Source of the DNA: a virus
Direction: 5' to 3' (one strand)
Virus record (IMG/VR): IMGVR_UViG_3300036390_000010
Coordinates: 1-40,347 of that record
DNA: 40,347 nucleotides
Both the position numbers and the translations under genes were made by a program. Below the pieces are notes generated by a model. It had not been told where the DNA came from. It was given only the letters and a program-made list of their open reading frames with translations, and made no database searches. Shown here piece by piece: positions 6,926 to 37,869 of this stretch. Position 1 is the first letter of the stretch. Every line of letters begins with the position of its first letter.

Positions 6926-8182
6926 TTAGGCCGTGACGCGGATGTTCGAGAGGCCGAGCTGCGAGAGTGCAGCGGCGATCGCGGCGTTCAGCACGTCGAA
7001 GGCTTCCGGCATGGGTTCGTCGTAGAGCTGGAGGTCGACCAGATCCGGCGTCTCGGCCCAGCGCATCTTGACGCGCAGGCCACCGGCTTCGAGCAGCGAG
7101 GCCGGGTTGAGCGACTTCGACCAGATCAGCTCGTAATCGATGATGGCGCCGAGCGTCTTCAGGTCAGACAGGAACTGGTCGGCAGCCCGATAGATTAGCG
7201 AGACGACGTGCGGCGTGATGTCCTCGGACACATACTGGCGCATGGGTCGCAGCATCGCCTTCTCGATCGCGCGGCGCGTCCGGATCTTCTTGATCGAGCG
7301 CCAACTGTTGACGGTCGGGTCGGTCGCGGTCGTGAACGGCGCCCAGAGCAGATTGCCCTCAATGATGGAGCCGACACCCGCCTGGGCGAGCTGGTTGGCC
7401 TCGGAGCTGATGTCCCCATCGGTATAGCCGACCGGCACGGAAGGTCCGAGAACGCCCTGAAGGGCGCGGTTCCAGAAGGCCTTGTAAGGGCCTCCGGTTT
7501 CCTTGTCCCGGCGTACCATGGCGGCTGCGACATTCGCCGACAGAGGCCGCGTGACATTGCCGGCGCCGAGGTTGACCACGCCGCCCGGATACATACCGAT
7601 GACGTTGAGCGCCGTCGCGAAGTCCTCCGCCCACTCGATTGCGTCCTCGATCGAGGTAGAAGGCGTGTCGGCGATGACCATGCAGTCGATGATGCGGTCG
7701 GAGACAGTCCGAGCGGCCGCGACAACGGGATTGGCAGCATCGCCCAGGCGGTGCGCCATGTAACCCGGCGCAATGATGCAGCCCGGCTCGATCTTGATGT
7801 GGCTCTTTGCATCGAGAAGCGCCCAGACGCCGGTTTTGGCACCTGCGCTGCCGACGATGCCGTTGATCTCAGCTTCGAGCTTGGCCTGCGGGTCTGTGAG
7901 TGTCGAATGTGGGGTGCGGACAAAGGCGAGATCAGTGACGATCCCCTCCGACAGGATCTGGTTGACCGTGTCACGAGCGACGCCTTCTCCCAGGAGTTCG
8001 ATCTGCTCACTGTTGTCGAGCGACAGCGTCACAGGCTCGTCGAGGGGAAAAGCCGTGTTGTCGGCAAGCGGCGCCGGCAGAGGGACGCCGATCGCGGTCG
8101 AGTCACGCGTGTCGATCTTGGCGACGGTGCTGCGAAGGTTGGAAAACTGGCGTACGCCGACGAAATCCGTGGTGCCTGACAT
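6926..8182 (-). CDS. FI: Contractile tail sheath protein, P2 gpFI-like
   Basis: A 418-residue sheath protein. Recognisable features are an N-terminal extended arm, PGYMAHRLGDA near the middle, and the C-terminal conserved sheath domain with WRSIKKIRTRRAIEKAML, which mediates sheath contacts and contraction. Length is close to P2 FI. AGGGA lies 6 bases before the ATG. It is the first gene after the dyad/terminator at 8235-8268, hence first gene of the second tail operon. Confidence 0.94.
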   Translation of the reverse strand: MSGTTDFVGVRQFSNLRSTVAKIDTRDSTAIGVPLPAPLADNTAFPLDEPVTLSLDNSEQIELLGEGVARDTVNQILSEGIVTDLAFVRTPHSTLTDPQAKLEAEINGIVGSAGAKTGVWALLDAKSHIKIEPGCIIAPGYMAHRLGDAANPVVAAARTVSDRIIDCMVIADTPSTSIEDAIEWAEDFATALNVIGMYPGGVVNLGAGNVTRPLSANVAAAMVRRDKETGGPYKAFWNRALQGVLGPSVPVGYTDGDISSEANQLAQAGVGSIIEGNLLWAPFTTATDPTVNSWRSIKKIRTRRAIEKAMLRPMRQYVSEDITPHVVSLIYRAADQFLSDLKTLGAIIDYELIWSKSLNPASLLEAGGLRVKMRWAETPDLVDLQLYDEPMPEAFDVLNAAIAAALSQLGLSNIRVTA

Positions 8183-8234
8183 CGGTCATCCCTGCCATTG
8201 GATTGGAAGCTGGGACGAGGTTAACGCGGGCATG

Positions 8235-8268
8235 AAAAAGGCCGGGCTGACAGCTGTCAGCCCGGCCT
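8235..8268 (-). terminator. Long dyad: intrinsic terminator plus copy 3 of the late-operon dyad
   Basis: Positions 8239-8268 form a perfect 30-bp palindrome whose centre is the 18-mer GGCTGACAGCTGTCAGCC. On the minus strand it is followed directly by five T (8239-8235), the form of a Rho-independent terminator for the V-W-J-I-fibre operon. The same 18-bp core occurs before two other late operons, where there is no T run, so it probably also serves as the operator for the sheath operon starting at 8182. A recognisable -10 is weak (TAACCT, about 31 bases past the centre). Confidence 0.8.
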
Positions 8269-8336: not shown

Positions 8337-8678
8337 TTACGGATAGGCCTGCGCCGCCCAGGTCCAGAGCGCATCGAGCTCGGGCTCGGTGATGCCCTCG
8401 ACGGCCGCCATCTGGATCAGCAGCGGATCATTCCGGCGGTAGACCTGAGCTTCTTCGAGATAAGCCAGCGCCTGAAACTTCTCCACACCATCGGGCATGG
8501 CATCAATATGGGCGCGGATGCCGGCTTTGGTCACCCCAATCTCGGCCGCAGCGAGCCAGAAGGTCAGACGGCTGAGAGGACCTGGAGGCAAAGCCTCCAA
8601 ACTGGCTTGCGCGGCCAGAAGATTGGCTTCCTCTTCCGGGGTGGCGTCTCTGATCTCTCCATCAATCAATATTTTCAT
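8337..8678 (-). CDS. Probable tail fibre assembly or tail-associated protein
   Basis: A 113-residue acidic, mainly helical protein that overlaps the fibre stop by 4 bases (ATGA, 8675-8678). Position after the putative fibre gene and before the FI operon is where P2 carries gpG, the fibre assembly chaperone. There is no strong sequence match that I recognise; the N-terminus (MKILIDGEIRDATPEEE) resembles small proteins often found downstream of fibre genes. Confidence 0.75.
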   Translation of the reverse strand: MKILIDGEIRDATPEEEANLLAAQASLEALPPGPLSRLTFWLAAAEIGVTKAGIRAHIDAMPDGVEKFQALAYLEEAQVYRRNDPLLIQMAAVEGITEPELDALWTWAAQAYP

Positions 8679-9783: not shown

Positions 9784-12700
9784 TCAGAAGACGGCCGCGC
9801 TGAAGTCACCAATCAGCAGCCGCGAAGCTGGCCCACCGGTGCCCGTGATCTTCAGCCGGCAAGTCGTCGCCGTCTGGTTTGTGAGTTCGTGCTTGCGCTC
9901 GACCCAGAGTGGGAAAGCCAGAGCCTCGGTTTCGTCGAGCGGCAGCAGTGTCCAAGCGCCACCGTCCTTGGAGATGTGCATGGTGGCCGACGAACCACCC
10001 GGCAAATAAGCCTTGTAGTAGCTCGCGATGCGGACCAGCTCACCCAGATCGAAGGCGCGGGTCACATAGGTCAGCTCCTCGTGGATCTTGCCCGCGACCA
10101 GCTGCACCGGCGCATAGAGGATCGGCGACAGCTTCGACGTGCCCTTGAGGACGGCTCGAAGCTCGATCGTCTCGGTCAGGAACTCGTTGAACTGCAGCAC
10201 CTGTCCTTCGGCCAGCCGGTAGATCGTGCCGTTGGTGCGCTCAACCTCGAACTCGACCGAGCAGCCATTCGACGGCAGCTCGATTTCGGCTCGCACCTGA
10301 AGATCCGAGCAGTCGACCAGGTCGAAGCTGCCGAGCGGGACCGTCTTGGTGGTCACCGGATACGTCCACGCAACGACGCGGAAGGCCAAAGCCTCGTCCT
10401 GGTGAGCCGTCCAGGTCTCGGCATTGACCGAGGAGCAGCGAGGCGCGACCACATAAGGGTGACGCGAGATCTTCTGCTGCAGCTCGGCATCGAAACCGCC
10501 GAGCTTGGCAACCGAAACGGCGTGCAGATTGTCGTCGGTCTTGATGACATGCCCGTGCAGGCTCTGCGGTCCAGTCGTCACCGGCAGCATGAAGCGCGCC
10601 GACTTCCAGCCCACCGCAGCGCCGGCCATTGAGACGAACGCTTCAGCTTGGATATCGGCGGTCGGATAGCCGTTGGCGGTCGTGACCTGGTTGACGACGA
10701 TATCCTTCGTGGTGTCGCCAATCCCGCAGAGGTGGAAGTCGAGCCCGATGATCTGCCGAAGCTCCGGGACTGCAAAAAGCTGAGCCTGCGGGTCAGAGCC
10801 TCGGTCACCGTTCTCCCGCCGCTCGATCTGCAGCCGGGTCCACCGGTTGATGGTCGTGACCCGTCGCATGATTTGGGTTTCGATCGTTCCCTGACCGGCA
10901 AAGAGCGCCGTCGCCTCGGAGCCGCCCTGGCCCTTGGCTTCTACCGTCTTGGTGCCGGCCGTGACATTCTCGGGGATCACGAAGGTATCGGAGATCTCAC
11001 CCTCGGCATCCGCCGTCACGACGCCGGCCGGCTTCACATCGACGCCGTCGAAGGTCAGCTCGTCGAGGATCTCGCCCGGCGCGAAGCCCTCGATCGAGAA
11101 CGTCACCGTGATCTGGCGGAGGAACTCGATCAACTCGCTGCGGGTGTCGATGAGCTGGGTCGTCGTGCTGGTGGTCGTAAGCGGCCCGCCATTGGTCTGG
11201 ACGCCGCGATTGAACTCGCGGGTCTGGGCAGAGAGCCACTGGTTACGGCTCACCGTCCAGAAGTCGACCGGCGGCTGAAGCGCCATCGACGCCGGCAGGA
11301 AGTTGAAGTTGGCATAAGGATTGATCAGCTCGCACTGGCTCTTCAGCTCCTGGGAGATGATCACTTCCTCGACACCGTCGAGCGTGACCGGCGCCGTCAG
11401 CGTGGTCTCGTAAAAGGTAGGGTCGATCGCGAGCTGCAGGATGCCATCGACGATGGCACCCGTCTGGACCACGCCCTCGTCGCGATAGCTGTCATCCTGG
11501 AAGGGATCAACAAAGATACCCTTCTTGGCAACCGGCTCGCGGGCGTCGGTCGCGTTCTTCAGCCGTTCGAGGCCGAGCAGGCGCAGCGTGTCGAAGTGAC
11601 TGTAGTAGAGCTTTGCAATCTCTGACGCCGGCAGGAAGCGGACACCGTCATTGACGCCGTCGACGATGATCTGCGGCGCCGACATCCAGTCATTGCGGAT
11701 CTGGCAGAGCTTCAGAGCATCGCTGGGGGCGCCTGGCGGACGCGGATTGGACCGGGCGGAGATGCCTTTGATGTAGAGCGGCGAACCGTCCTCGCTCAGG
11801 CAAAGGCGATCGATACGCGGCAGTTTGCTGGTGTAGGTCACGAGGATATCACCGCCGGCAGCGCCACCGGAAACGGTGATCTCGGTATCGTTGAAGGCAT
11901 CGGCGACCACGGTGGCGCGATACCGATAGGTGACGGTGTAAGTTGAACCGGCCGCTGGCTCAGCGCCGACCAGCCCCCAATCCACGGCATTGGCCACACG
12001 GCTGTAATCAGTGCCCTGAATATAGGTCGTGCCGCCCTGGACGACAGAGACGATCTCGGTCACGCTGGTATCCGGCAGACCATCGGCGCCGTTGGCGATG
12101 GCCCCGCGTGTGACGGCCACAGACTTCTGCTTGGTCAGCAGGATCGTGTTGATGGTGCCGATCGGCGCGACATCGACGCTGAAGGTATGCGAGGCGCCGC
12201 CCGGATAGGTGTGGGTTTCCCCGTTGATCAGCAGCTCGTCCCAATCCTCGATCTCTTCGTGGCGAAGGGCGGCAAGGCGGGTCCGCTTGTAGCCGTTGAT
12301 ATTGGCCTCGCCTTCCGAGATCGAGAAGATCTGCTTGCCAGCGTCGGTACCGAGCCAGGTCACGCGGCAACCGCTGACGATATAGTTTCCGTTCGGGCGG
12401 TCGTACTCGATGATCGACTGCAGCGCCGGCGCCAGAATGTTCGGACCGGTCTGATCGAGGATGACGCCGTCCTGAAGGGTGTAGACGGAGAAGAACAGGC
12501 CGTCCTCATCGGCGTCCTGATGCGACCAGGTCGCGCTCCTGATCTCGCGCGATGCACCTTCCTCGCCCTCGCCGTCGGAGCCAGGCACAAGGCCGAGCAA
12601 AGTCGGATCGTCTTCGGAGGTGACCCAATCGGTCACGAGACGGATGCCGACTTCGGTGCGGCCGGTCATGGGAACGTCAGCCAAAACGCGAGCCGGCACG

Positions 12701-20392: not shown

Positions 20393-20938
20393 TTTGGGTT
20401 CCTCAGAGGTTGAAAGGTCAGCCGATGCGACGGCCGCCATCGAAGCAGCCGGCGCAGCAACGAGCGCGGCCGAATGCAGCCAGAAGGCCTTGCCGTTCTC
20501 GTCGTGTTTCAAGGTGGGAGAAATGTAGCGGTGGGTGCGGGCAGCGAGGACCGCGAGGCCTTCGGCCAGCCACTCGACTTTGCCATAGAGGCCATCGGCG
20601 CGGGCTTCGAGCTTCGAGATCCAGCCGACGGCCGGAGCCGCCTCGCCGAACATGGCCTTCTTCACCGTCGCATGGTCGATATCGACAGGGAGATCGACGC
20701 CGTCCTGGACGAAGCGCGCGGCGAGCAGCTCGGGATCCACATCGAAGACGCGACCGTCGCGGGCGGTGAACTTGCCGCGCGGCGTAACCTTGATCCATTC
20801 CGGGCCGGCCTGCTTGGCGGCAGCGGTCGGATCGGCAAGGTAAGCGTCGAGGACGGTCAGACCGGTCATCGCCTCGGCAATGCCGGGGACAGCAGGAGAG
20901 AGCGTCGATAAGGTGAGTGTCGGCGAGTTCTTGAGCAT
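19934..20938 (-). CDS. Prohead protease with C-terminal scaffold, Mu protein I-like
   Basis: A 334-residue prohead protease. The first 180 residues carry the protein I domain (WIKVTPRGKFTARDG, VDLPVDIDHAT, VGWISKLEARADG, YISPTLKHDENG) and the rest is a helical, charged scaffold segment. The ATG at 20938 is the start that fits the intergenic dyad upstream; a longer in-frame start would pass through the dyad. The protease matures the prohead by cutting scaffold and itself. A second product probably begins at 20392. Confidence 0.9.
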   Translation of the reverse strand: MLKNSPTLTLSTLSPAVPGIAEAMTGLTVLDAYLADPTAAAKQAGPEWIKVTPRGKFTARDGRVFDVDPELLAARFVQDGVDLPVDIDHATVKKAMFGEAAPAVGWISKLEARADGLYGKVEWLAEGLAVLAARTHRYISPTLKHDENGKAFWLHSAALVAAPAASMAAVASADLSTSEEPKMLKAIAAALGLSEDASEASCLSAVTNLKARIDPQVHQAALDQVKTLSADLEARNKADHQAKVDTLLDGALKEKKIVPAQRDQYAALCATTEGLAQVTALLGTMTATLSASGLDDKQPGDKLSTLSAEDREVIKMLGISEEEYRKANGLTAAA

Positions 20939-20971
20939 GGCGGCAAATTGCCACCGTTCTCTGCTGCCTTG

Positions 20972-20991
20972 AGGCTGACATCTGTCAGCCT
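20972..20991 (-). promoter_or_regulatory. Copy 2 of the late-operon dyad, upstream of the protease/head operon
   Basis: AGGCTGACATCTGTCAGCCT on the plus strand is identical to the other two copies except for one base at the centre. It lies in the 232-base gap between the MuF-like gene and the protease gene. The centre is about 43 bases from the protease ATG, so a start point at the usual activator spacing would give a very short or absent leader. No good -10 is visible. The rest of the gap holds only a short CCCCG/CGGGG hairpin (21043-21054). Confidence 0.65.
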
Positions 20992-21170
20992 GCCGCGAGG
21001 GAGGCCGCTGAAGGGCCGTTCGCCTCACATGCGCGCATCTAACCCCGAGCGGGGGAGAGGATCAAGTCCCGATCCGTTTTCGAAGCCTCTTCAAAGCCCG
21101 TGGGCGCGTTTTCCGGGTCAGCCACGGCTCACCGCCCGTCCGAGGGGCTTCGTGCGCGTCTGTGGCCGTT

Positions 21171-22361
21171 CTATTCAGCGCCCTGTTCGAGCCGTTCGAT
21201 GCGCATCATGCCACCCTGGGCGAGCCGAAGGAAGCTTCGCCAAATCACCGATCCCAGGCGAGCAATGATCTCGATCTCCGGACGCTCGTCTGTCGGGTAG
21301 CTTTTCACCGCTGTCGAGGACAGGACATCGGGTAGAACCGAGAGATCGTCGATGTCGAGCCCGGCGCCGAGCAGCGTCCCGATCGCCTCACCCGTGATCG
21401 AGATGACAGGCGATGAGGCTCTAAGCTCCGCCGCGATGCCGACATTGTGCCCGGCCGGGAGAGCGAAGGCCTGGGGAAGTCGCGGCGCGATCCTCAGGTA
21501 AGGGTCTGACCAGAGATCTCGAAGCACCCGGTTTGCGTCCTCAGGCGCGGCAGCGGCAAGCTTTGTGTCGAGGTTCTGCACGAGCGTTGAGGCCCGCGCC
21601 AGGCCGGGATTGGTCTGCCAGCCGGGATCGATGCCAGGAGGCACGATCGAGATCTCACCAGTCCGCCGGTTGCGGTACTGGATATCAGGCCCGAGGTCAG
21701 GTGCCTGGTCGGTGTAGCGGATCTTGATATCGTTGCCGTCGAGATCCTGACCAATGACACGCTCGGTCCCCAGCAACCGGTCACGCTCGCGCGCCGAGAT
21801 CATCCGCACCTGGCATTTGCACTGCCAGCCATTCGGCGGCCAGTGCGTTCGCCAGAAGGGATCGTCGATCGGCAGAATGAGACCAACCCACTGCAGATGC
21901 TCGACGCGGGGGTCGCTTGATGTGGTCCGGACGTAGAGCACATAGGGCAGCACCCGCTTAGAGCGCTGCGCCCGCTCCCATTGGCCGGCAGCCCGCGCCG
22001 AATTCAAGTTCGCCCAGAACGTCGTCTTCAGCCGCCGATCGCTGGCGAAGTTCACCATGCGGTCGGGTTGGGCACCGGTCGGGTCCGAGACCATGCGCGG
22101 TCCCCACCAGCCGAGCTTCGTCAGCTCCTTCTCGATCTGAGGCTTCCAGCTCTCGAAGCCTTGGCCCTCCGCGATAGCGGTCGAGATCGTCGATCGGAAC
22201 GCGTTGAGCACGTCGAGCTCGACGGCCTTCGCGACCGTGAACTTGTAGGCATGCTCCTCCGCCCAGACATCTGCCCAGGAGAAGGCCGGCGTGGACGTCT
22301 TGCCGTCGAAGTAGCTGGTGACCTCGGCCGGGACCGCGAAGGCTGGATTGCGCTCTGCCAT
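21171..22361 (-). CDS. Minor head protein, Mu gpF / gp30-like (MuF)
   Basis: A 396-residue MuF-family protein packaged in the head near the portal. The family signature HWPPNGWQCKCQVR is at residues 173-186, after the conserved helical domain with FWANLNSARAAGQWER. The last 130 residues are an extension beyond the core MuF domain. MuF proteins in other phages often carry nuclease or toxin-like tails, but no known motif is evident here. It lies directly after the portal gene. Confidence 0.9.
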   Translation of the reverse strand: MAERNPAFAVPAEVTSYFDGKTSTPAFSWADVWAEEHAYKFTVAKAVELDVLNAFRSTISTAIAEGQGFESWKPQIEKELTKLGWWGPRMVSDPTGAQPDRMVNFASDRRLKTTFWANLNSARAAGQWERAQRSKRVLPYVLYVRTTSSDPRVEHLQWVGLILPIDDPFWRTHWPPNGWQCKCQVRMISARERDRLLGTERVIGQDLDGNDIKIRYTDQAPDLGPDIQYRNRRTGEISIVPPGIDPGWQTNPGLARASTLVQNLDTKLAAAAPEDANRVLRDLWSDPYLRIAPRLPQAFALPAGHNVGIAAELRASSPVISITGEAIGTLLGAGLDIDDLSVLPDVLSSTAVKSYPTDERPEIEIIARLGSVIWRSFLRLAQGGMMRIERLEQGAE

Positions 22362-29001: not shown

Positions 29002-29046
29002 ACTATGCAATCAGTGGGGGATTTGAGGGGCTGACAGCTGTCAGCC
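29002..29046 (-). promoter_or_regulatory. Copy 1 of the late-operon dyad with candidate -10 (lysis promoter)
   Basis: The perfect 18-bp palindrome GGCTGACAGCTGTCAGCC spans 29029-29046. On the minus strand, TG-C-ATAGT follows, with a -10-like CATAGT (29007-29002) about 31 bases past the palindrome centre. That would put the centre near -43 from the start site, where Mor- and C-type activators bind in Mu. No -35 is visible, as expected of an activated promoter. There is no T run, so this copy is not a terminator. Confidence 0.68.
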
Positions 29047-29049
29047 GGA

Positions 29050-29445
29050 TCAGAAGAGACTGCCCTGACCGTCGTCTTCTTTAGCTTTCATGCGCCAAAT
29101 CGTGCGCTCATGCAAGCCTGCGATACGAGCCGCCTCGCGGGCACTCTTGCCCTCGTCGAGTGCTTCCTGGGCGCGTCGGCGGGCAGCGGTCAGGATCGCG
29201 GCCGGCCCGCGCGGAATGATCTCATTCTGCACGCCGCGCAGCTTTCCGTCTGGATCAAGTGTCGCCAAGCCCTGGCAGATCTTGTCGGCAGTCTCGAAAC
29301 CGAGCAGCTCCGTCAGCCAGTGGCCTTGGACTGCCCGAGGCGGGATGGAAACGCGCGTGCCGCCGTGGCTTCGTGCCACTTCATAGGCAGCATCGATCCC
29401 GGCGATATCGGCGATGTCCGCGAGGATGCCCGGAAGAGTGCTCAT
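29050..29445 (-). CDS. Mor/C-family late or middle transcription activator
   Basis: A 131-residue protein. Residues 28-37 (GGTRVSIPPR) correspond to the conserved GGG-x-VYIPRG segment of Mu Mor, and residues 98-122 form the C-terminal helix-turn-helix (SAREAARIAGLHERTIWRM). Length agrees with Mor (129). Such proteins bind as dimers to a dyad just upstream of -35 and recruit RNA polymerase. It is the last gene before the lysis module and the dyad at 29029-29046 begins at its stop codon, so it is the best candidate activator of all three dyad-marked operons. Confidence 0.82.
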   Translation of the reverse strand: MSTLPGILADIADIAGIDAAYEVARSHGGTRVSIPPRAVQGHWLTELLGFETADKICQGLATLDPDGKLRGVQNEIIPRGPAAILTAARRRAQEALDEGKSAREAARIAGLHERTIWRMKAKEDDGQGSLF

Positions 29446-31151: not shown

Positions 31152-31390
31152 GATGCCACCGCCCTTCCGTCCTGACGGCGCTGAGCCTCGCGCTCCCGCT
31201 TGGCAGGTAAATACAGCTCCCGCCATGCGATTGAATTCTGCTGCCTGACCTTGTCCGAGATCGGCAGGCCCTTCCGCCGGCAGTTATCGTATCGGTTGAT
31301 CGCCATGCGGAGAGCGCAGGATTTCGACTTTTCATCGCACTCCGGGAGTCCGCATTCAAAACAGGGATGTTGCGCCTTGCTGGTCATCAC
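31148..31390 (-). CDS. Small Cys-rich protein
   Basis: An 80-residue protein with HPCFECGLPECDEKSKSCALR near the start: C-x2-C, then C and C, likely a zinc knuckle, followed by a basic tail. It starts with GTG at 31390 overlapping the upstream stop (GTGA), or ATG at 31387. Likely a nucleic-acid-binding early protein; not recognised. Confidence 0.75.
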   Translation of the reverse strand: MMTSKAQHPCFECGLPECDEKSKSCALRMAINRYDNCRRKGLPISDKVRQQNSIAWRELYLPAKREREAQRRQDGRAVAS

Positions 31391-31707
31391 GCCGCCGCCT
31401 TTCCCGAGTCGAGGCGCTCCAGGCGGTAGCCGTGGCCCTTCTGAGCGCGGATCGTCCAGCCCGCCTTTTCAAGCTTCTTGCGGGCGGTGCAGATATGCCC
31501 GCGGATGGCGATAGGTGCGCTCAGAGGCCCGCCATCCGGGCAGTCGCCCCATACCTTCTCGATGAGAACCCCGATCGAGGTCAGGCGGTGGTTCGCCTGA
31601 ACCAGCGCCTCGACGATCAGCATCTCGTTGCGTGTCAATTTGGCCACGTCGATTCCGGAGAAGTCGCCCATAGGCTGTCCGCAGTGAGAGCAAAGAAGGC
31701 GAGCCAT
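31387..31707 (-). CDS. PhoB/OmpR-type winged-helix regulator without receiver domain
   Basis: A 106-residue protein. N-terminal CSHCGQPM suggests a zinc knuckle. Residues 23-98 match the Trans_Reg_C fold: LTRNEMLIVEALVQA, then LIEKVWGDCP, then AIRGHICTARKKLEKAG (recognition helix region) and GHGYRL, as in response regulators such as PhoB. No receiver domain is present. It overlaps the GemA stop (TAATG), the place where Mu carries mor, so it is likely a second phage transcription regulator. Confidence 0.82.
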   Translation of the reverse strand: MARLLCSHCGQPMGDFSGIDVAKLTRNEMLIVEALVQANHRLTSIGVLIEKVWGDCPDGGPLSAPIAIRGHICTARKKLEKAGWTIRAQKGHGYRLERLDSGKAAA

Positions 31708-32354
31708 TACGCACCGCCTTTCGCTGCACGAACGCGCTCGCCGAGAGCGTTCATCACCCGCTGCCAGTCGCTGTCCACGAGGTGGCTCAGCACCTGGGCA
31801 TCCGCCCGGCCGGAGAGCCGGATCGCTTCTTGGTCGAAGCCTTGGCGGGTGATGAGGCCTGCGCCTGGATGAATGATGCGCCACTGCGCCCAGGCGATCT
31901 TTGCACCGTCGCGCTGCAGCCACTCGTATCCATTGGTGTTGCCGAAGCCGACGCCTGCCTCACGCTTCAGCCAGCCCTTAAGCGCCTCGATCGCGGCCCG
32001 ACCGTCGTCGGCATAGTGCAGGAATCGAGTGTGATCGAGACCGGTCTGACGCTTGACGAAGGCCAGCAAAGCCGCATCCCGGCGATCCTTCACGACGCCG
32101 AGATTGTAGCCGGCGATCCAGAGGGCCTGCAGCTTCTTGGCATACTTGCCCGTCAGCCCCTTCACCTTCTCTTTGCCCTCGGCCGGCGTGAAGCCGTCGT
32201 TCCGCAAGACGGTCAGGACGCGCTGGCGCTCCTGCTCGGTCATGTCCTTCACCGACGACTTGCCGGTGATGTTGGTGAGCTTAGCCCGGTAGGTGTCTTC
32301 GTCCAGGCCGAGCTGCTTCTTGGCAACGTGGATGGCGGCGATGGAGGAGGTCAT
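31707..32354 (-). CDS. gemA: GemA-like regulatory protein (Mu gp16, DUF1018)
   Basis: A 215-residue protein. The first 140 residues match GemA/DUF1018: AIHVAKKQLGLDEDTYRAKL at the start, then WIAGYNLGVVKDRRDAALLAFVKRQTGLDHTRFL. In Mu GemA affects host gene expression and DNA supercoiling or gyrase-related functions. Overlaps neighbours by 4 bases at its start and 3 at its end. Confidence 0.9.
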   Translation of the reverse strand: MTSSIAAIHVAKKQLGLDEDTYRAKLTNITGKSSVKDMTEQERQRVLTVLRNDGFTPAEGKEKVKGLTGKYAKKLQALWIAGYNLGVVKDRRDAALLAFVKRQTGLDHTRFLHYADDGRAAIEALKGWLKREAGVGFGNTNGYEWLQRDGAKIAWAQWRIIHPGAGLITRQGFDQEAIRLSGRADAQVLSHLVDSDWQRVMNALGERVRAAKGGA

Positions 32355-34479: not shown

Positions 34480-34763
34480 GAGCGGCCTCCCTTCCCGAAA
34501 TCTGGACGGATGATCTTGCCCTTGGCATCGGCGATCATGTCTTCGAGCTGCTCAGTAGCAGCCAGCTCCATGCTCCGACGTGCCTGCCCACCGGCTTCCA
34601 TGTCGCGGAAGATCGAAAGCTCCAGCTCGATACGCTGTGCCAATGAGCTGAGGGCGCTGATAAACACCCCCGTCTCGATGATCTCCGCGACCGGCACGTC
34701 GGCGCTGCGACCTTTGAAGTCGGATGCGATGGCATCCAGTTCCATAGCGAGACTGATCGTCAT
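34476..34763 (-). CDS. Early protein directly after transposase B
   Basis: A 95-residue acidic helical protein (AEIIETGVFISALSSLAQRIELEL). Its first half resembles the length and style of the next gene product. It overlaps the transposase B stop by 4 bases, so it is translated with it. Function unknown. Confidence 0.72.
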   Translation of the reverse strand: MTISLAMELDAIASDFKGRSADVPVAEIIETGVFISALSSLAQRIELELSIFRDMEAGGQARRSMELAATEQLEDMIADAKGKIIRPDFGKGGRS

Positions 34764-35785
34764 GCGATGTCTCCCAGGTCACGGTTCTTCCACGCATCGC
34801 GCAGCAAGGGCAGCGTGAGATCTTCGCCACCGGAGAGGCCAGAAATCAGCGCGGCCTTGATGGTGCGGTCGATGTTACGCAAGGCCCCCGGCTTTTGAGC
34901 GATGACCTTCAGGAACTTCACGCAATCGTCGTCTTCGACGCCCCAGGCAGAGATCAGCATCTCGGCGCCGAGCTGCGGGTTGTTTTCCCGCTTCAGGCGA
35001 CGGTCAAAGCGGGTCGCGACCTGAGCCCGGCTCATCACTGACTTGCTGCGATCGTTGAAGAAGGAGGTCCCGGTGTCCTCATTGCCCAGGAGCGCCAGCC
35101 CGCAATTGTTGATGTCGACGAAATGGCGCAGCTGGTTGATCGCGTCCGGGACAAGGTTCTGGGCTTCGTCCACAATGAGGAGCGAGCCTTCGCCGATCCG
35201 CTGCAGCTTGCGACCGATGGTGCGCACCAGTCGGGTCGGATTGTGCTCAGTCACCTGCAGTTCCTCGGCGATATCGACGAGGATCCCGTGGATTGTCTTC
35301 GTGTGCGGGCTGGCCGTCACCATGAAGACATGCGGACGATAGTCACGGAAGTGCTTGGCCGCTGTCGTCTTGCCGGAGCCTGAAGGCAGGGTCACCATGA
35401 CCATGCCTGCACTGATCTGGGCAAAGAGGAGGGTCTTGATCACGTCCTCGCCGGTCGGCGTCTTCAGGTAGCGCGGCGAGACCGGCAGCGTTGCCGCGAT
35501 CCGCGAGCTTTCTTCCAGGTTGTCCAGCCAGGTGCTGATCTGGTCATTGAGGTTGGACAAGACGCCGGCATAGTTGCCATTCGTCCATTGACTGAAGGTC
35601 GCTTCCGCCATTCCCGTGCGGCGGCGCACCTCGGCCTTTGACCAGCCATTGAGCTTCGAAAGCTCAATGACTGCGCCGAGCAGCTTGCGCCAGCGATCGA
35701 CCTCCGCCGGTTGGTGCTTGACCGTAAACTCGGTGCTGGGCTGCGGAATGATCCATGCGCCGGTTGTGTTGATCGGATTTTTCAT
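34760..35785 (-). CDS. B: Transposition protein B, AAA+ ATPase (MuB-like)
   Basis: A 341-residue MuB homologue. Residues 47-75 form an N-terminal helix-turn-helix (GWSKAEVRRRTGMAEATFSQW); Walker A is PSGSGKTT (134-141) and Walker B SLLIVDEAQN (201-210, D206 E207). LGNEDT is the sensor 1 region. MuB polymerises on target DNA with ATP, selects target sites and activates transposase A. The start has AGGA about 10 bases upstream. Separated from A by 122 bases holding two stem-loops. Confidence 0.94.
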   Translation of the reverse strand: MKNPINTTGAWIIPQPSTEFTVKHQPAEVDRWRKLLGAVIELSKLNGWSKAEVRRRTGMAEATFSQWTNGNYAGVLSNLNDQISTWLDNLEESSRIAATLPVSPRYLKTPTGEDVIKTLLFAQISAGMVMVTLPSGSGKTTAAKHFRDYRPHVFMVTASPHTKTIHGILVDIAEELQVTEHNPTRLVRTIGRKLQRIGEGSLLIVDEAQNLVPDAINQLRHFVDINNCGLALLGNEDTGTSFFNDRSKSVMSRAQVATRFDRRLKRENNPQLGAEMLISAWGVEDDDCVKFLKVIAQKPGALRNIDRTIKAALISGLSGGEDLTLPLLRDAWKNRDLGDIA

Positions 35786-35883: not shown

Positions 35884-35909
35884 AGCCCGAACGCAGCACT
35901 CTTCGGGCT
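35884..35909 (-). other. Stem-loop at the end of transposase A
   Basis: AGCCCGAA (35884-35891) pairs with TTCGGGCT (35902-35909) across a 10-base loop. It begins at the transposase A stop codon (35910-35908). There is no T run after it; it may stabilise the A message or affect A-to-B coupling. Confidence 0.5.
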
Positions 35910-37869
35910 ATTCCCGGTTGGGGAATAGGATGATGTCGGCGTCGCCAAGTATGCGATCCATGCCGGCATTGAACTTGTCGTCGAAGCTCTCGACCTCCTC
36001 CGACACCGCAGGCTCCAACTTCGTCAGCACCGCTGATCGGGTCACAAGTCGAGTGACCGTCGGAGCCTTTGGCGTCTTTGTCTGGGGCTTCATCTTGTCG
36101 GCTTTGGCATTCAGTTCCTTGAGGTCTAGATCGGTCAGGCGGCGAGCTGCCGTCTTCTGGGCCTTCAGGGAGCGCATGTGATCGCTCTCGGCGCGCGCCC
36201 GCTCACGAGCTGCCGCCTGGCAATCGAAGCCAACCTTGGCGACGCAATCCGCTTCGCCGAGGAACCGTCCTTCAGGATCGTAGACCTTGATTGCCCCGTG
36301 CAGATCGGCCGGGTCGAAGCGAACCGTGACCTTGCGACCGATCCACTGAGTGAGGAACTGTTGATGGTACCGGTTGCCGAACAGGTGGATGGCACCATCC
36401 GGTTTGCGGGCTGTGACCTGCTCTGCGGCAAGCATCCAGAGGGAACGCTGAGCCGGGCTGGCAAACCGAACGAACTGGCCGTGCGTCTCCATGCTGGCTT
36501 CGAACACCTGGTCGAAACTTCTGCCTTTGGCCGTCTCGGTCTTTCGATCCGGGCGGGCGTTGTGCTCGGCCACCTGGCGCGCCACGTGCGCTTCCAGTTC
36601 AGCGACGGGAATTGCACGCTGGCCGTAGTTTTCTGGCTTGTGTTGCGTGCTTCTGCCAGTATAGGCGCCCGCCATATCGGGATGCTTGGAGATGTTCTCG
36701 GCAAGATCGCCCCACGCACGCTCGACGGGCTTTGACTGGCCACGGCGGGGCTTAACGAAGCGACCGTCGATGCCCAGCGTCTGCAGAAGCCCGGCAACTT
36801 CATCTTCCGTGATCTTGAAACGATGGCGGGACTTTGCACCGCCGGAGATCTTCTTGCTGGCAAAGGCCTTGCCGTTGTCCATGTAGAGACGTTCCGGGAT
36901 GCCGTGCTGCTCGACCATATTACCGATGACGGTCCGGACGGCCTCCCAGGTCTCAGCCTCGGTCAGCACCCATGACAGGATCTTGCGCGAGTAAAGGCAC
37001 TGTGTGCCGACCAGATAAAGGCGACCCTGGCGGCCGTCTTCGAACTGGACATGCAGGTCGAGCTTGTGACCGTCGGTGTTCACATACTGCATGGCATGCA
37101 GGTGCGAGACGCTACGCTGCTGGGCCGGAATAAGCTTCCGAGCCTCTTCCTTGCCTTTGCGCGAGAGGATCTGCACCGCCTTCGGGATCTTCAGATCCAT
37201 GTGCCGGCGCAGGGTCCGCTCGTGAGGGATCGGTGCCCAGCCATGCGCCTCGGCCACCGCTTTCATCCGCCGATAGCAGGCAGAGAATGCCGATCCTTCG
37301 GGACGCAAATAGTCCGAGACCAGAACGTCCCAGGCCATGGGGTGTACCTCGGCGGTCTCGGTCACCACGCCCAGCGCCTTTTTCGAAGTCGACGGGGCCA
37401 GTGCAGCTTCCCAGTCCTGTCGCGCGTGGCCTTCGGTGAGGGCTCTCCACTCGTGATAGGTGGATCGAGAAACTCCATAGCGTTGCTTGATCGCGGCCAT
37501 GGCCTGAGCAGAGGTCGCGCCGTCCCGGATCATCGTCTCGACGGCGAGGAGAACCTTGAGGCGGCGCTCGCACTGTGCCTTCTGAACGGTCGTCAGCCGC
37601 TCATAGATCGCCCAAGCCGTCTTCGAACGGTCAGTTTTCGGGGCTTGAGCCTCCATCATGAAGGCGAGCTTCTGTCGCGCGGCGTCGGGCAGAGAGGACA
37701 GGTGATACTCATAGTAGACGCCACCATTCGGTGCTGTCTGGCGCCTGAAGTACCGAAGGTCGGAGCGCAGACCCTCGCGGGCAACGAACCGGTCGAAGTG
37801 CTTCGTATCAACCGGGACACCCGGAAGTTTTGCCTCGACGAGTTCCTTGACGGAGAACCACTCTTTCAC
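35908..37869 (-). CDS. A: DDE transposase A (MuA-like)
   Basis: A 653-residue MuA homologue. Residues 1-75 form the winged-helix domain that binds the internal enhancer (WFSVKELVEAKLPGVPV). Residues 90-240 hold the end-binding helix-turn-helix domains. The RNase-H-like catalytic core has D266 (VNTDGHK), D331 (YMDNGKAF) and E383 (KPVERAWG), spaced as in MuA (D269, D336, E392). The basic C-terminal part contains the region that contacts B. It catalyses strand cleavage and transfer for integration and replicative transposition. ATGA overlap with the upstream gene. Confidence 0.96.
   Translation of the reverse strand: MKEWFSVKELVEAKLPGVPVDTKHFDRFVAREGLRSDLRYFRRQTAPNGGVYYEYHLSSLPDAARQKLAFMMEAQAPKTDRSKTAWAIYERLTTVQKAQCERRLKVLLAVETMIRDGATSAQAMAAIKQRYGVSRSTYHEWRALTEGHARQDWEAALAPSTSKKALGVVTETAEVHPMAWDVLVSDYLRPEGSAFSACYRRMKAVAEAHGWAPIPHERTLRRHMDLKIPKAVQILSRKGKEEARKLIPAQQRSVSHLHAMQYVNTDGHKLDLHVQFEDGRQGRLYLVGTQCLYSRKILSWVLTEAETWEAVRTVIGNMVEQHGIPERLYMDNGKAFASKKISGGAKSRHRFKITEDEVAGLLQTLGIDGRFVKPRRGQSKPVERAWGDLAENISKHPDMAGAYTGRSTQHKPENYGQRAIPVAELEAHVARQVAEHNARPDRKTETAKGRSFDQVFEASMETHGQFVRFASPAQRSLWMLAAEQVTARKPDGAIHLFGNRYHQQFLTQWIGRKVTVRFDPADLHGAIKVYDPEGRFLGEADCVAKVGFDCQAAARERARAESDHMRSLKAQKTAARRLTDLDLKELNAKADKMKPQTKTPKAPTVTRLVTRSAVLTKLEPAVSEEVESFDDKFNAGMDRILGDADIILFPNRE

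Follow-up and report, generated by a model that had tools for sequence, protein, structure and literature searches.

Genes and features of the sheath locus

The window, which is the whole stretch of 40,347 nucleotides of viral DNA analysed here, is on sequence grounds a Mu-like transposable phage of a group infecting rhizobia, and its relatives belong to Rhizobium, Neorhizobium, Shinella, Gellertiella and Pannonibacter. It has contractile-tail genes, among them baseplate relatives of V, W and J, and encodes a Mu I-like protease (PF10123); the MuA, MuB, protease, sheath, baseplate and activator genes alike are carried on the minus strand. No plasmid match was found for the window, and an Rfam search of it returned no matches. 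We also note that a protein of the early region, encoded at 31387-31923, matches PF00486 (OmpR-type winged-helix DNA-binding) without a receiver domain match, and is a possible second regulator. The features discussed below are as follows.

6926-8182, minus strand: tail sheath gene, which heads the downstream operon (PHROG 23 tail sheath, E=1.4e-44)
8218-8223, minus strand: predicted -10 element of the sheath promoter, TAACCT, with a start predicted at ~8211
8234-8238, minus strand: putative terminator U-tract (T5 in the sequence; among relatives, a U-tract over the operator occurs at sheath sites only)
8239-8268, minus strand: perfect 30-bp palindrome, a putative terminator hairpin enclosing an operator (repeat search, terminator scan and folding; the arms covary in relatives)
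8245-8262, no strand assigned: GGCTGACAGCTGTCAGCC, core of the sheath-promoter operator, where an activator dimer is proposed to bind (kept before the sheath gene in relatives; two more copies in the window)
8337-8678, minus strand: 113-aa gene that closes the upstream operon (PHROG 6034, a family of no assigned function)
20973-20990, no strand assigned: second operator copy, at the putative protease promoter just before the protease ATG, without a terminator (motif search)
29029-29046, no strand assigned: third operator copy, at the putative lysis promoter between the activator and amidase genes, without a terminator (motif search)
29050-29445, minus strand: C/Mor-related late activator, 131 aa, with a C-terminal helix-turn-helix, proposed to bind the operators (PHROG 836 late transcriptional activator, E=9.3e-21)
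34760-35785, minus strand: MuB
35908-37869, minus strand: MuA

The palindrome before the sheath gene is composed of AGGCCGGGCTGACAG and CTGTCAGCCCGGCCT, which match exactly with zero spacer; a search of the window found no longer perfect inverted repeat. The minus strand beyond it reads TTTTTC, so that the original prediction of a perfect 30-bp palindrome followed by five T on that strand is confirmed, with limits slightly corrected to 8239-8268 for the palindrome and 8234-8238 for the T-run. At 62% G+C, 9e-5 perfect 30-bp palindromes are expected by chance per 40 kb, and the probability of the six extra perfect pairs beyond the 18-bp operator is 3.5e-4. The site tops the terminator-like matches in a 20-kb scan. 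In RNA form it yields a stem of 13 pairs closed by a 4-nt AGCU loop, and the hairpin with its tail has a folding energy of -28.8 kcal/mol (z = -8.2). A G+C-rich 13-bp stem followed by UUUUU on the transcribed strand is the arrangement of an intrinsic (Rho-independent) terminator.

Proposed core operator, promoter geometry and activator

The two further copies of GGCTGACAGCTGTCAGCC in the window differ by at most one change, and the T-run is absent from both. A scan with the 18-mer, relaxed at its centre, over 2.9 million viral contigs returned 30 stretches, 21 of which sit on contigs that had been found independently through a sheath or an activator gene. In most records covering the late region, three operator sites occupy the same three places, as compared with 0-1 for a control pattern, and one of the three lies directly 3' of the activator stop codon.

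At the sheath sites the dyad centre of the core is placed 30-32 nt upstream of a TAnnnT -10 element in 22 of 29 non-redundant relatives, an arrangement seen almost nowhere else; an equivalent -10 (CATAGT; CAATTT or TAGATT) is present at a similar distance at the lysis and protease sites. When the -10 element is assigned to positions -12 to -7, the dyad is centred near -43 of the predicted start, as in Mu C/Mor-type promoters. A start between 8182 and 8235 had been anticipated, and the predicted one, near 8211 with its -10 at 8223-8218, falls within this interval, as far as the sequence can tell. Scans for consensus sigma-70 promoters missed the late promoters, in keeping with promoters that lack a -35 element and depend on an activator. 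As a separate observation, the predicted -10 of the protease promoter (20936-20950, minus strand; also in L127-L157) ends ~5-7 nt before the conserved ATG, and because of this closeness the protease/head transcript may be leaderless.

The window phage encodes a C/Mor-family activator (PHROG 836), the single activator gene of this kind found in the window. Mor and C of Mu match PHROG 836 as well (1e-10 and 2e-11); their own family, PHROG 532, has no member in the window. The Pfam Mor model matches the window activator with E=0.1 only. The sole match in a sequence search of the PDB with this protein was to a designed repeat protein, over a helix-turn-helix segment, and a fold search gave no significant match to the solved Mor fold. 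A late promoter of the P2 Ogr/Delta type was also considered, and was rejected on finding no match to PF04606 (Ogr/Delta zinc-finger activator) in the window.

The operator role of GGCTGACAGCTGTCAGCC is well supported by comparison, given its occurrence at three promoter positions in each genome, the fixed -10 distance and the location of one copy right after the C/Mor-type activator gene. The same observations agree with the earlier proposal that the palindrome includes a putative activator site for the sheath operon. We infer that the PHROG 836 activator is the protein that binds these operators.

Terminator evidence at the sheath sites of relatives

The outer arms of the sheath palindromes (positions 10-15 from the centre) vary among relatives, with AGGCCG, AGGGCT, CCCCTC, AACCAC, AGCCGG and GAAAGG among the sequences observed, and their complementarity is maintained. 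The arms form 86 of 174 possible pairs, in comparison with 53±6 when the right arms are shuffled, and none of 20,000 shuffles reached 86; a control with the register slid gave 45-67 pairs. After the set was thinned to 65% identity, 62 of 144 pairs were formed versus 42±5.5 (9 of 20,000 shuffles). Arm pairing is weakly in excess at the protease sites (22/60, P about 0.02) and not at the lysis sites (17/72). An extended palindrome with a U-tract over the operator is present at 10 of 29 sheath sites versus 0 of 22 others (Fisher P=0.003). The hairpin is thus kept through compensatory change in relatives, as is characteristic of intrinsic terminators, and is lost in some; L002 and L003, which are among the nearest relatives, keep the operator with no visible terminator.

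In seven relatives the operator is plain and is immediately preceded by an ordinary terminator, for example AAGGGCGGCTCAAACCGCCCTTTTTC. This separate layout and the fused layout, in which the hairpin encloses the operator, interleave on the sheath tree with eight changes in total, of which at least five are forced by well-supported branches for a fused label that was assigned by eye to L010, L012, L063 and L087 (short U-tract or bulged stem). Two prophage loci of one bacterium that are neighbours on the tree (L060 and L063) differ in layout.

The terminator role of 8239-8268 is well supported by comparison, through its strand, its U-tract, the covarying arms at the sheath site and the separate terminator that replaces it in sister phages. 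In most relatives a gene on the same strand ends ~90-200 nt before the sheath ATG, and the identity of this gene varies. No terminator is visible at 20990-21171, between the preceding operon and the protease promoter, in contrast to the sheath boundary; the transcript from the lysis promoter may read through into the protease operon.

A distant version of the fused site is found in Ochrobactrum phage POA1180 (KX669658), whose activator and sheath proteins are 39% and 32% identical to those of the window phage. Like the window phage, it has the same gene order, a PHROG 836 activator and three operators, and the fused hairpin with a T-run is present before the sheath gene only. Its operator differs, being CCTGACA-N-TGTCAGG with one central base; at the sheath site it is extended to CGCCCCTGACACTGTCAGGGGCG-TTTTGTTTTG and followed by T (-19.7 kcal/mol). 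The text of one article on this phage (PMC5492332) contains neither ‘promoter’ nor ‘palindrom’, and terminators appear in it as map marks only. We also note that in L170-L182, more distant relatives from the same bacterial order, palindromes with altered cores (CTGAACCTGTTCAG, GCTGCATGCGTGCAGC and GTGAACCGGTTCAC) are situated upstream of the sheath gene, as if operator specificity had shifted; those of L171 (38 bp) and L175 (36 bp) are perfect and have almost no T-run.

Proposed double use, alternatives and known systems

From these comparisons it appears quite likely that the late operator at the sheath promoter, one of the C/Mor type, has been extended at its flanks so as to act also as the intrinsic terminator of the preceding operon. 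For the protein binding, the transcript ends, the start site and the purpose of insulation, we infer the following scheme. Polymerase arriving from the head, baseplate and fibre genes would transcribe the palindrome into a 13-bp RNA hairpin, and the transcript would be released at the U-tract, which lies ~ten bases before the sheath -10. The activator, presumably dimeric and bound to the inner 18 bp near -43, would start the sheath transcript near 8211, and from such a start the sheath message would be free of the hairpin. With the double use, a short stretch of DNA would suffice to insulate the promoter of the sheath operon from the variable fibre module, a reasonable purpose in view of an upstream gene that is co-directional and variable in identity. 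The site had been predicted to end transcripts of a V-W-J-I-fibre operon. The strand, the U-tract and the covarying arms agree with the ending of transcripts here, and the operon so named is probably too short: no operator precedes V, and the ended transcript most likely begins at the protease operator at 20973-20990, carrying the head, baseplate and fibre genes.

A stronger form of the double use, in which the two functions are coupled, is doubtful. Occupancy by the activator would decide between a block to polymerase, termination at the hairpin and eviction of the activator, and would thereby fix the balance between fibre and sheath transcripts. The two uses do compete for the same bases, as a bound operator has to be transcribed in order to form the hairpin, and by analogy LacI offers a precedent for both roadblock and eviction, since the DNA-bound protein stalls polymerase and can be dislodged by it (PMC4132739). 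Against this, the sister phages with separated elements do without coupling, so that a link between binding and termination is not required.

Less probable again is a reading in which the site is an operator only, the activator contacting a longer and stronger palindrome beside an incidental T-run. Several extended palindromes (L010, L087, L096, L171 and L175) do have a poor U-tract, and the weak pairing excess at the protease sites points the same way. However, the outer arms preserve complementarity alone, which a protein that reads sequence does not need; the lysis site is without outer arms; and the U-tracts lie on the transcribed strand, with a separate terminator used instead in sister phages. 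That the site is a terminator only, its inner motif being ordinary hairpin sequence and any sheath promoter lying elsewhere, would account for the strong hairpin and U-tract and is nevertheless highly improbable, as each genome has the core at two further promoters, there unextended, lacking a U-tract and at a fixed -10 distance, and as seven relatives keep it beside their separate terminators.

The double use of the sheath palindrome as operator and terminator may be compared with known systems. The Mor site at Pm of Mu is centred at -43.5 (PMC4287176), and the C-dependent late promoters and Pm of Mu share with the present sites a dyad operator near -43 and a -10 element without a consensus -35, as well as a related activator family and promoters at the lysis and protease (I) genes (PMC4287176, PMC4461284). 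The window phage differs from Mu in its operator sequence, in the finding of a single activator gene where Mu has both Mor and C, and in a third putative promoter, at the sheath gene, where the operator is fused with a terminator. Mycobacteriophage stoperators are sites for a phage protein that also end transcription (PMC9283540). At stoperators a bound repressor halts polymerase at many asymmetric sites; this is in contrast to the RNA hairpin stop and the activator protein proposed here, and membership of the stoperator class was rejected on the basis of three symmetric sites, all at promoters.

The sheath site would provide a clear natural case, with roles assigned by comparison, of one DNA palindrome serving as protein operator and RNA terminator in several lineages and with compensatory changes. 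The sister phages in which the functions are separated are ready-made controls for an effect of the activator on termination. The predicted late regulon of three promoters concerns little-studied Mu-like phages of rhizobia, and the fused site could be used as a compact part for promoter insulation. No report of a fused operator and terminator was found in the literature covered, chiefly open-access papers, and a precedent in Mu may exist. The terminators of the lys and P transcripts of Mu have been studied and are a possible source of such a precedent. In the Mu genome itself a terminator-like hairpin, AATAACCGGCATCCTGCCGGTTATTT, is observed at ~10380-10406; it begins in the stop codon of gene C and abuts the Plys region, and an adjacent, non-fused layout of terminator and operator may thus exist in Mu beside Plys.
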